12,123 nucleotides of DNA, taken from Kiritimatiellales bacterium (lineage in GTDB: Bacteria > Verrucomicrobiota > Kiritimatiellia > Kiritimatiellales > Tichowtungiaceae). The notes below the pieces were generated by a model. The model did no database searches. It had not been told where the DNA came from and was given only the letters and a program-made list of their open reading frames with translations. Where the stretch lies: assembly GCA_028692515.1 (NCBI GenBank), contig JAQUXG010000025.1:1-12123 (forward strand). The letters run 5' to 3'. Position 1 is the stretch's first letter; each line of letters begins with the position of its first letter. This document shows, piece by piece, positions 1,810 through 9,470 of the stretch. Position numbers and translations under genes: made by a program.

Positions 1810-1845
1810 GGTTCAGAGTTCAGCGTTCGGGGTTCAGGGTTCGAA
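1810..1845. repeat. Left arm of inverted 7-nt repeat array flanking the four-helix-bundle gene
   Basis: Five consecutive 7-base units follow the pattern GTTCRGN, variable mainly in the last bases. The reverse complement of 2225-2257 shows the same units (AGTTCGG, GTTCAGA, GTTCAGG), so the two arms face each other across the four-helix-bundle gene. The arrangement looks like terminal inverted repeats built from microrepeats. Confidence 0.8.
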
Positions 1846-1860
1846 GTGGGGAGAGGCACG

Positions 1861-2232
1861 TTGAAGATAGAGCGATTTGAGGATATCGAGGGCTGGCAGC
1901 TCGGGCGAAAACTGGCAAACCAAATCTATGATTTGACGGCTTGCGGATTGTTTGCTGCAGATTTTGGATTGAAGGATCAGATTCAGCGGGCTGCCGGATC
2001 CATCATGCACAACATCGCTGAAGGCTTTGATTCTGGAACAAATCCGGAATTTGTACGATTTCTTGGCTATTCCAAGCGCTCCTGCACAGAGGTGCAGAGT
2101 GAACTTTATTTGGCATTAGATAGAGGATATATTTCCCAAACGAAATTTGAAGTGGCATACAAGCTGGCGGGAGAGGCGAAAGCCGTTGTCGGCGGATTTA
2201 TTCATTACTTGAGAAATCATCCAAAACCCTGA
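1861..2232 (+). CDS. Four-helix bundle protein, S23 / 23S rRNA intervening-sequence family
   Basis: The product, about 123 residues, has the hallmarks of the S23-type four-helix bundle family: IERFEDIEGWQLGRKLANQIYDLT at the start, GLKDQIQRAAGSIMHNIAEGFDSGT in the middle, and FLGYSKRSCTEVQSELYLALDRGYI followed by a last amphipathic helix. Family members were first seen as reading frames in intervening sequences of 23S rRNA and also occur as stand-alone genes; a related protein, Avd, is an accessory factor of diversity-generating retroelements. The biochemical role of stand-alone members is unknown. I prefer the TTG start at 1861 because GGGGAG (1848-1853) lies 7 bases upstream and family proteins begin at this point. 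A GTG at 1846 in the same frame lacks a ribosome binding site. The stop codon (2230-2232) lies within the right repeat array. The gene separates clpP from clpX, which are usually adjacent, so it is probably a late insertion. Confidence 0.88.
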   Translation: MKIERFEDIEGWQLGRKLANQIYDLTACGLFAADFGLKDQIQRAAGSIMHNIAEGFDSGTNPEFVRFLGYSKRSCTEVQSELYLALDRGYISQTKFEVAYKLAGEAKAVVGGFIHYLRNHPKP

Positions 2233-2257
2233 ACTCTGAACCCCGAACTCCGAACTT
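2225..2257. repeat. Right arm of inverted 7-nt repeat array; supplies the gene's stop and the clpX leader
   Basis: Read on the minus strand, this stretch is made of GTTCRGR-type heptamers like the left arm at 1810-1845. It overlaps the last two codons and stop of the four-helix-bundle gene and runs up to the clpX ATG at 2258, so the clpX 5' leader is repeat DNA. Confidence 0.8.
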
Positions 2258-3502
2258 ATGAATAAACAGCCTCGTAAACCCGTCTGCTCCTTTTGCGGAA
2301 AAACCGAAAAAGACACCCAAAGCCTGATCGCCGGTCCGGACGGCATCTGCATTTGCGACGAATGCGTCGAACTTTGCGGAGCCATGATCACCCAGCAGGG
2401 TCAGCACGGAAAACCCAGTGCTGCCGCCATCAAAGTACTCAAGCCGCACGAAATCAAAGCGCATCTCGACGAATACGTTATCGGGCAGGAGCACGCCAAG
2501 AAAGTGCTCTCCGTCGCGGTTCACAACCACTATAAGCGGCTGACCGACACCACTGCCAAAGACGACGGTGTCGAGCTCGAAAAGAGTAACGTCCTGCTCA
2601 TCGGTCCAACCGGCTCTGGAAAAACCCTGCTGGCCAAAACGCTTGCGCGCATTCTCGACGTGCCGTACGCCATCACCGATGCCACCACCGTCACCGAAGC
2701 CGGCTACGTCGGCGAAGACGTCGAAAGCATTCTGCTCGCGCTGTTGCAGAATGCCAACCACGACGTTAAACGCGCCGAGCGCGGCATCGTCTATATCGAC
2801 GAAATCGACAAAATTTCCCGCAAAACCGACAACGTCTCCATCACGCGTGACGTCTCCGGCGAAGGCGTTCAGCAGGCTCTGCTGAAAATCATCGAAGGCA
2901 CCATCGCCAGTGTTCCGCCCAAAGGCGGACGCAAGCACCCGCAAGAGGAATACATCAAACTCGACACGAGCAATATTCTCTTCATCTGCGGCGGCGCATT
3001 CGTAGGGATCGATGAAATCATCAAACGCCGCAGCGACAAAAAGGTACTCGGCTTCGGCGCGACCACCGAAAAAGTTTCCGAGGATTGGACGCCCGAAACC
3101 ATGAACGTCGAGCCGGAAGACCTGCTCAAGTATGGTTTGATTCCGGAATTTATCGGCCGCATTCCGCTGGTCGTTCAGCTTCAGGAACTTTCCGAAGACG
3201 ATCTCATTCACATTTTGACTCAGCCGAAAAACTCCATGATCAAGCAGTACAAAAAACTGCTTGCCATGGATGACGTCGAGCTGGAATTTGATGATGACGC
3301 GTTGCGCTCGCTCGCCAAAATGGCGTTGAAACGCAAAACCGGTGCCCGCGGACTGCGCGCCATCCTTGAGCATCTTATGCTCGACGTCATGTACGAAGTG
3401 CCGCAGCGCAATGATATTACGAATTGCCGCATCACTAAAGACGTTGTCGAAGGCCGCGCCCATCCCATCGAACTCGGCGACTTGAAAAAGAAGTCGGCTT
3501 GA
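2258..3502 (+). CDS. clpX: ATP-dependent Clp protease ATP-binding subunit ClpX
   Basis: ClpX is a hexameric AAA+ unfoldase that recognises tagged substrates and threads them into ClpP. The 414-residue product has the N-terminal zinc-binding domain with Cys10, Cys13, Cys33 and Cys36, one residue longer between the cysteine pairs than in E. coli. Next come Walker A GPTGSGKT (116-123), pore loop GYVG (149-152), Walker B IVYIDEID (177-184), the RKH pore loop (225-227), the ClpP-docking loop as LGF (264-266; IGF in E. coli), the arginine finger in FIGR (Arg301) and sensor 2 in TGARGLR (361-367). All the elements expected of an active ClpX are present. The ATG at 2258 is the only sensible start before the zinc domain, but the bases in front of it are heptamer repeat with no Shine-Dalgarno sequence. 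Expression may therefore depend on unstructured leader or on coupling with the upstream gene (inference). Confidence 0.98.
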
Positions 3503-4643: not shown

Positions 4644-4718
4644 TTACAGATTGTCAGAGCTGATGCCTGATCCCTTTCTCCTGATTCCTGATCTTACAGA
4701 TCGTCTGAGCTGATGCCT
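4644..4718. repeat. Duplicated 3' end of parB, separated by a 7-nt repeat array
   Basis: Positions 4644-4668 repeat 4694-4718 with 23 of 25 bases identical and an offset of exactly 50. The inner copy (4694-4718) is the real end of parB. Read on the minus strand the outer copy encodes GISSDNL and a stop, against GISSDDL and a stop in the gene. The bases between the copies (4669-4693) are CTGATYC-type heptamers. This looks like a target duplication or tail regeneration around a small insertion. Confidence 0.75.
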
Positions 4719-9378: not shown

Positions 9379-9454
9379 GGTCAAAGGTCGGAAGGTCAAA
9401 GGTCCAAAGTCTTTGACTCCCGACATTCAGACTTTAGACTTTTAGACTGTAGAC
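9379..9454. repeat. Inverted pair of 7-nt repeat arrays between ilvB and ilvN
   Basis: Left arm 9379-9411 has GGTCAAA-type units every 7 to 8 bases (GGTC recurring four times). Right arm 9412-9454 has GAC every 7 to 8 bases (GACTTTA type), which on the minus strand reads as AGTCTAAA units facing the left arm. GTCAAAG (9395-9401)/CTTTGAC (9411-9417) form a 7-bp stem at the junction. The array is 'empty': no gene lies between the arms. It fills nearly the whole ilvB-ilvN gap, leaving the ilvN ribosome binding site intact. Confidence 0.75.
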
Positions 9455-9470
9455 AAAACGGAGTTGAAAA

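Follow-up and report, generated by a model that had tools for sequence, protein, structure and literature searches.

An intervening sequence of Coxiella rRNA is the closest described counterpart of the element analyzed here. In the available portion of PMC4990558, this 428-nt sequence is described as containing an S23p ORF and a 28-bp terminal stem and as being excised by RNase III. Tandem heptamers are located ahead of the ORF, and their copy number varies between strains. Intervening sequences with S23p ORFs are named there for Leptospira and others, and their distribution is given as sporadic.

A looser analogy is provided by the REP/REPIN sequences with their RAYT partners, which share with the elements described below the presence of intergenic inverted repeats with or without a gene. 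REP/REPIN repeats are short, inverted and intergenic, are built on one genome-wide palindrome, and have a coding partner at some copies and none at others. RAYT is a Y1-type transposase.

Short intergenic repeats of 7 nt have been described separately. In the available portions of two reports, these are GGGAATC in Xanthomonas and GGGGATT in Nostoc (PMC4692102) and TAACTGA, found upstream of start codons, in marine Beggiatoaceae (PMC4679880). Convergent heptamer pairs were counted in two Xanthomonas (70 and 75), and most of the near-gene heptamers of Xanthomonas and Nostoc are no more than 50 bp away from a stop codon, if on the coding strand, or from a start codon, if on the noncoding strand; the same text records few inverted pairs in Nostoc and generally no association with mobile elements (PMC4692102). 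G-quadruplexes or regulator sites were proposed as their function in the parts available of both reports (PMC4692102, PMC4679880). It was stated in 2015, in the available part of PMC4692102, that no detailed literature was available on the over-representation of heptamers in bacterial genomes. The term "S23" occurs 0 times in the main text of PMC4692102, PMC4679880, PMC4853749 and PMC3542288, and a literature search, from which subscription journals were mostly absent, returned no report that connects S23 genes outside rRNA with 7-mer arrays in their flanks.

The S23 element between clpP and clpX

The window is the whole 12,123-nt stretch of DNA that was analyzed. The element lies in the gap between clpP (1201–1800, + strand) and clpX (2258–3502, + strand) and not inside an rRNA gene. 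Both host genes were taken from the ORF list; clpP was named from its sequence and from the gene order, which is the same in relatives, and clpX was supported by a search of relatives. The left array (1811–1845, + strand) was read directly as five 7-nt units of the GTTCRGR type (AGTTCRG in the AGK rotation), namely GTTCAGA, GTTCAGC, GTTCGGG, GTTCAGG and GTTCGAA. The S23 gene, encoding a four-helix-bundle protein of the 23S rRNA intervening-sequence family, spans 1861–2232 (+ strand). The right array (2228–2255, − strand), also read directly, consists of four inverted units of the left-array type: CCTGAAC, TCTGAAC, CCCGAAC and TCCGAAC, which on the other strand are GTTCGGA, GTTCGGG, GTTCAGA and GTTCAGG. 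The ATG of clpX is found at 2258, 2 nt past this array.

Each array coincides with a run of lag-7 identity, at 1800–1857 on the left (matches up to 17/21) and at 2214–2266 on the right (up to 18/21). The exact four-unit pattern GTTCNNNGTTCNNNGTTCNNNGTTC has four matches in the 1.81 Mb assembly to which the window belongs, three of them within the two arrays and one at a single other place, on C143; its reversed control has 0 matches in the same assembly. The initial annotation had described an S23 gene between inverted heptamer arrays, a stop codon supplied by the right array, and a unit that splits clpP from clpX. All three descriptions were borne out: the match score of the two arms is 21, compared with a mean of 6.8 and a maximum of 15 in 1000 shuffles; the TGA stop (2230–2232) lies inside the first right-array unit; and the gap measures 457 nt here, whereas 7 of 17 parsed gaps measure 11–18 nt. 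Translation likely begins at TTG 1861 and not at GTG 1846, since an SD-like GGGAGAGG precedes the former and the relatives L343, L344 and L345 begin at the same residue. In the predicted RNA fold of 1800–2262 the two arms are paired, with a z-score of −4.62 and none of 100 shuffles as good. No family was reported at its gathering score in an Rfam scan of the window.

The protein matches PF05635 (6.9e-29), which is the sole Pfam family found in it, and TIGR02436 (2.7e-27). The element thus has the S23p/IVP ORF of the 23S rRNA intervening sequences, and it has their terminal inverted repeats with the ORF in the loop. An AF2 model was obtained with a mean pLDDT of 96 and was compared with known structures using Foldseek. 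The target-normalized TM scores are 0.91–0.94 for 2gsc and 0.74–0.87 for 2rld. The same four-helix fold is found in Avd of the diversity-generating retroelements, with scores of 0.82–0.84 for 4dwl and 0.80 for 8ub7_E; sequence identity in the 4dwl alignments is 10–12%. Avd is an RNA- and reverse transcriptase-binding partner, and the title of the 8ub7 entry names a ribonucleoprotein.

Eleven pairs of S23 genes were compared, and five of them gave a finite dS (1.2–2.1). These five have dN/dS values of 0.04–0.23, so that the protein, judged from these comparisons, is under purifying selection. A defense-system reading was dropped because 0 families of the PADLOC models were matched by the two S23 proteins submitted. 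No match was found in the phage collection that was searched.

Inverted arrays at other S23 loci

The genome that contains the window has 10 matches to PF05635, of which 8 lie above the cutoff. Array-like repeats were recognized by eye in the flanks of the other S23 loci of this genome, with a word that changed from locus to locus (GCTTTAG, AGTCAGG, AACTTGA, GTAATCC and others); at one locus, L002, only the right side is present on the contig. Because the word differs at each locus, further loci were gathered by the protein alone and the arrays were ignored. The collection comprised 8 loci from this genome, 30 and 27 from relatives, and at least 80 from genome contigs of many phyla. Titles in this last, far set include Bacteroidetes, Planctomycetes, Clostridia, Acidobacteria, a cyanobacterium, candidate phyla (Kaiserbacteria) and several proteobacterial groups; it was collected with a profile (A2) made from one S23 subgroup, and S23 proteins are therefore sampled unevenly. 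A total of 145 loci were entered. Three of these (L008, L132 and L136) are without a profile match, L008 having an arm score of 26, and 139 of the remaining 142 have both flanks of at least 120 nt.

Flanks of 200 nt were compared in inverted orientation, and the thresholds were set at the 95th and 99th percentiles of 263 in-locus controls. Inverted matching flanks were found above the 95th percentile at 124 of the 139 loci and above the 99th at 113 of 139, with the far loci taken from among the matches listed. By group, and with the same restriction, the 95th percentile was exceeded at 5/6 loci of this genome, 49/54 of the relatives and 70/79 of the far set. The other 15 loci have no inverted flanks above the control threshold. 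The initial annotation had asked whether such arrays are regular when S23 genes are collected with 200 bases of flank, and they are, consisting of 7- or 8-mers; the opposite outcome, S23 genes elsewhere lacking such arrays, was not found.

When the arms were chosen by the inverted match alone, the lag identity within them was 0.53, 0.51 and 0.46 at lags of 7, 14 and 21. Arms chosen in the same way gave 0.36, 0.32 and 0.33 at lags of 8, 16 and 24, and the background, from other lags of the arms and from gene interiors, is 0.23–0.28. The best period is 7 nt at 91 of the 124 loci, 8 nt at 27 and another value at 6. The ParE loci of the relatives served as a small-gene control: with 200-nt flanks none of 29 is above the threshold, compared with 54/60 S23 loci, and with 500-nt flanks 5/29 pass the lower threshold (a score of 12) and 0 the upper one (14), compared with 55/60 and 47/60 for S23. 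A chance origin of the inverted flanks was rejected on the basis of the shuffles, the in-locus controls, the reversed pattern and the ParE loci. The quartiles of element length are 441, 478 and 532 bp, close to the 428 nt given in the available text for the Coxiella intervening sequence, in which the same protein family likewise lies in the loop of terminal inverted repeats; the quartiles of arm length are 28, 33 and 40 nt. From these sequence comparisons, the S23 gene with its inverted arrays is very likely a real, recurrent unit.

A single genome-wide word, as in REP, was rejected since left and right flanks of different loci seldom match. A few swapped pairs do match, with scores of up to 82, and are supposed to come from closely similar loci. 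The likeness to RAYT/REP systems drawn in the initial annotation therefore holds as an analogy and goes no further: the window gene, in which PF05635 alone is found, is not a RAYT transposase, and the units differ by locus.

The repeat units were analyzed at the 93 of 124 loci with arrays that are long enough. The core AG[GT] is present at 68 of these 93 loci, compared with 35.1 (sd 4.3) for shuffled units, and in the left arm the sense strand of the units is rich in G. At L131 the arms include units of the AGTTATC type, which corresponds to the complement of the Beggiatoaceae heptamer TAACTGA in another rotation. The conserved unit positions agree between the two arms, with a mean r of 0.51 versus −0.08 when phase-shifted (p = 7e-14); the phase of the right arm was picked for the best overlap with the left, which favors agreement somewhat. 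The succession of unit variants in one arm does not mirror that in the other when arrays are found by periodicity alone (p = 0.13). The arms thus resemble two sets of sites for one motif and not the halves of one copied hairpin. Mismatches compatible with G:U pairing in the sense strand are not in excess (187 versus 199, p = 0.58), and there is accordingly no sign of selection on RNA pairing itself.

The repeat word is locus-specific and yet was shown by sequence comparison to track the S23 protein. Among 7501 context-unrelated pairs of loci, i.e., pairs without detectably related neighbors, with far loci from among the matches listed, similar arms are found in at most 1.9% of pairs below 50% protein identity, in 4.2% at 50–55% and in 8.9% at 55–60%. 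The fraction is 33% of 123 pairs at 60–70% identity and 11 of 11 at 70% or above. The observed Mantel correlation was reached by 0/1000 label permutations for all 124 loci, by 0/1000 for the 70 far loci and by 2/1000 for the 54 near loci, the correlations themselves being modest (rho of 0.18, 0.24 and 0.16, respectively). The GTTCRGG arrays of the window element recur at an unrelated site in a relative (L128 in G008), beside a panB-like gene. At four loci (L140, L141, L143 and L146), which belong to different phyla and have unrelated surroundings, protein and unit are shared. Elements from Nostoc and Geminocystis plasmids are 71% identical over 474 columns; the homology extends from a few bases ahead of the left array to within the right array, and the neighbors differ. 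In the S23 elements at large, both arms are arrays of 7- or 8-nt units with a locus-specific word that follows the protein, which sets them apart from the rRNA intervening sequences.

Occupied, gene-less and empty sites

The gap between clpP and clpX was parsed at 17 of 29 loci, the end of clpP not being locatable in the other 12. It measures 15 nt in two genomes of the same genus (G004 and G007) and 11–18 nt in a further five genomes from the order (G016, G037, G022, G042 and G015). Empty sites in relatives, for which the initial annotation had called, are therefore present, and it is not the case that close relatives all carry the gene here. The corresponding gap of G002 contains an S23 gene (L353) with right-arm units of the GTTCRGR type, the left side reading N; its protein is 76% identical to that of L128 over 45 residues. 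Gaps of 96–112 nt that are gene-less and hairpin-like, with differing words, were found in G013, G008, G011, G006, G003 and G036, with arm scores of 16, 11, 9, 8, 9 and 8, respectively. Only that of G013, which has the GTTC-type word of the window, passes the control threshold, and the others were judged by eye. These gaps may represent one old insertion with concerted change of the word in both arms, or repeated insertions.

Eleven genomes of the genus supplied 42 S23 loci for a comparison with 792 kb of G007: 17 were unmatched, 8 were unpaired, 1 was G007's own and 16 were paired. Nine of the 16 paired loci, at seven gaps, are empty in G007, with 26–80 nt between the anchors versus 449–642 nt in the occupied genomes. 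These are L003; L033; the pair L114 and L124, which share one gap but have different words; L121; L125; the pair L130 and L131, which share one gap; and L137. The other seven have an S23 gene in G007 too: L001, L037, L115 and L119, which share a place between gltB- and gltD-like genes; L004; and L041 and L139, which share another. Part of the family has thus been inherited vertically. The gltB–gltD-like place of G007 (C2:156426–156953) is composite, with a left array, an inverted array, the S23 gene and a second inverted array. Recombination between the two arrays of the same direction, which flank the S23 gene, would leave a gene-less hairpin.

Two sites on Nostoc plasmids, which are ∼95–96% alike, were found without the element. 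The traM gap is occupied in L223 and L226, empty in L224, L227 and L229, and has gene-less arrays, recognized by eye, in L225 and L228; the nrdB–nrdA gap is occupied in L222 and empty in L230. No S23 remnant was seen by eye in the loop of the gene-less copy L225. The elements of L223 and L226 are identical at 469 of 472 positions (99.4%), whereas the flanks are identical at 349 of 415 positions (84.1%) on the upstream side and at 480 of 507 on the downstream side; this looks like a recent exchange of the element or of the surrounding tract. The copy number of the arrays is unequal between these close strains.

The terminal inverted repeats at 124 of 139 loci are MITE-like. A consistent target-site duplication, as in MITEs, was not found: the traM and nrd sites of Nostoc show no clear one, and a possible AACTGAGGT duplication at L121 is the sole candidate. 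Recent transposition was not caught among the S23 pairs in unrelated contexts, which have large or saturated dS. An apparent case between two Calothrix plasmids was rejected, because both loci share their neighbors and represent one plasmid context.

The coupling of protein to unit in unrelated contexts and the pairs of occupied and empty sites make the gene with its arrays a well-supported candidate for a mobile unit, as the initial annotation had proposed; the support is comparative. The strongest alternative is that nothing moves. The S23 protein would then be an autoregulator that binds nucleic acid, or a translational regulator, the arrays would have evolved locus by locus as its operator or mRNA sites, and the gene would be an ordinary accessory gene that is patchily lost. 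The coupling of protein to unit, the conservation of the same unit positions in both arms, the purifying selection, the inconsistency of target duplication and the conservation of some S23 sites across species all agree with such regulation. We nevertheless consider it unlikely, given the recurrence of one protein with its unit in unrelated surroundings of different phyla (L140, L141, L143 and L146), the empty sites in plasmid regions of ∼95–96% identity, the G013 gap with gene-less arrays of the window word, and the Nostoc–Geminocystis homology that stops at the arrays.

The density of 7-nt arrays was determined in genomes with and without S23. Lag-7 runs occur at 37.1 per Mb in six S23-bearing genomes (68 in 1.83 Mb; other lags, 2.2 per Mb) and at 7.4 per Mb in six S23-free genomes of the class, out of seven such relatives (4 in 0.54 Mb; other lags, 5.0 per Mb), with a Fisher p of 1.1e-5. 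Some of the G008 stretches come from contigs known to carry S23, which favors the S23-bearing group; when G008 is left out, 48 lag-7 runs remain in 1.59 Mb. The initial annotation had suggested an autonomous element with nonautonomous relatives. The excess of arrays in S23-bearing genomes as a group fits this suggestion, with the caveat that two of the six, G023 and G024, have just 0 and 1 runs; autonomy, with S23 as the mobilizing agent, would be a putative property.

Within the 792 kb of G007, all four S23 genes found sit in inverted arrays with scores of 18–21 and loops of more than 300 nt. Two of these genes were left unlabeled by the script, since the open frame runs past the arms. Conversely, all four inverted arrays with a score of at least 18 and a loop of more than 300 nt enclose S23. 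Gene-less pairs with short loops (31–42 nt) and scores of 14–17 are found at 83064, 293725 and 379539. The remaining pairs without S23 are a repeated palindrome (scores of 19 and 22; loop of 278) and several pairs with scores of 13–16, the weaker long-loop ones scoring 13–14. A palindrome of the AGCCGCGATCCCTGATCGCGG type, repeated in three copies at C1:320753–321126 outside any S23 element, is perhaps a REP-like sequence.

These counts bear on a second alternative, that the 7-nt hairpin arrays are products of host slippage that arise anywhere between genes and that S23 enters their loops by array recombination. Slippage has been proposed for heptamers in the available text of PMC4692102 and PMC4679880, the copy number does vary in close strains (L223 versus L226), and six relatives have the gene-less, hairpin-like clpP–clpX gaps of 96–112 nt with differing words, of which that of G013 alone passes the threshold. 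S23-free relatives are without a lag-7 excess, however (4 runs, 7.4 per Mb), the four high-scoring, long-loop arrays in the 792 kb of G007 all enclose S23, and the unit tracks the protein. S23 as a passive passenger is accordingly regarded as quite improbable.

Two arrays were observed in the window apart from the S23 element. A gene-less, weak inverted pair of AGGTCAA and AGTCTAA types (9379–9412 and 9415–9456) has an arm score of 11, below the threshold for S23 loci, and lies in the gap between ORFs resembling the large and small subunits of acetolactate synthase. A lone array of TGATTCC-type 7-mers (4660–4693) is found by a parB-like ORF and has no partner within 600 nt.

Orientation and proposed mechanism

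At 128 loci the orientation of the neighbors was taken from the longest open frame found on either side within ∼1.26 kb. Both neighbors are sense to S23 at 94 loci, both are antisense at 7, and the arrangement is mixed at 27 (p = 1.5e-20). Insertion without regard to orientation would give equal numbers; either antisense insertions are lost, therefore, or reading of the element requires the host transcript.

The mechanism that we favor starts from the element as a left array of 7-nt (sometimes 8-nt) units, the S23 gene, and inverted units on the right. This gene-plus-arrays unit is probably a genome-wide relative of the rRNA intervening sequences that is expressed from host operons and moves as a unit into the gaps between genes. 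Taken by itself, movement as a unit is likely. Expression would occur via the transcript of the host operon, the two arms of which would pair as a long stem closing a loop that contains the S23 gene. RNase III could cut this stem as in the rRNA intervening sequences, and such cutting is proposed to make an insertion inside an operon tolerable; the prospects for and against this processing step are about even. An oligomer of S23, with its Avd-like fold, might bind the units and be responsible for the maintenance or spread of the element, although recognition of the units by S23 is rated at slightly under an even chance. Gene-less arrays would be derived or nonautonomous copies, and the arrays would change in length through slippage.

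The rRNA intervening sequences of the available literature reside in 16S and 23S rRNA genes, whereas the S23 elements are found between protein genes in many phyla. The simplest reading of the sequences would make the rRNA elements a special case of a genome-wide class. The rRNA intervening sequences would then be widened into that class, and the pattern points to an overlooked kind of small mobile element related to them. The large S23, or "four helix bundle protein", family would gain a testable genomic role, and its locus-specific words, which follow the protein, constitute a natural data set for a code of short-word nucleic acid recognition.

An RVT_1 match was obtained in 21 of 58 genomes. 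No match to this family was found in the genome of the window (86% complete), which in this respect differs from systems with Avd as an accessory of a diversity-generating retroelement. The same search was negative for G003 (13 S23 matches), G006 (11), G007 (8), G008 (18; 97% complete) and G055 (15). A canonical reverse transcriptase thus seems unneeded, and a third alternative, in which the Avd-like S23 recruits a host reverse transcriptase in trans that copies the hairpin RNA into new gaps, is highly improbable in view of the several S23-rich genomes without RVT_1, notwithstanding the fold similarity to Avd and the sense bias of S23.

The placement of the Xanthomonas and Nostoc heptamers relative to stops and starts, as given in the available text of PMC4692102, is the geometry of the left and right S23 arms. 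The few inverted pairs in Nostoc and the lack of association with mobile elements in the same text count against reading the published heptamers as S23 elements. S23 elements do offer a concrete explanation, other than polymerase slippage, of why heptamers are over-represented in bacterial genomes. In a more tentative extension, a phylum-spanning class of autonomous elements could be envisaged in which one small oligomeric protein recognizes, and diversifies together with, a short word whose repeats flank its own gene on either side. Such a class might move without a recognizable transposase or reverse transcriptase, and it might be the source of the rRNA intervening sequences, of the orphan arrays of heptamers in Nostoc, Xanthomonas and Beggiatoaceae, and of the heptamer excess reported for bacterial genomes.

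S23 domains were also observed within long open frames of 584 residues (G034:C433:13609–13908) and 352 residues (G051:C8:22029–22343), which are possible fusions or read-through frames.
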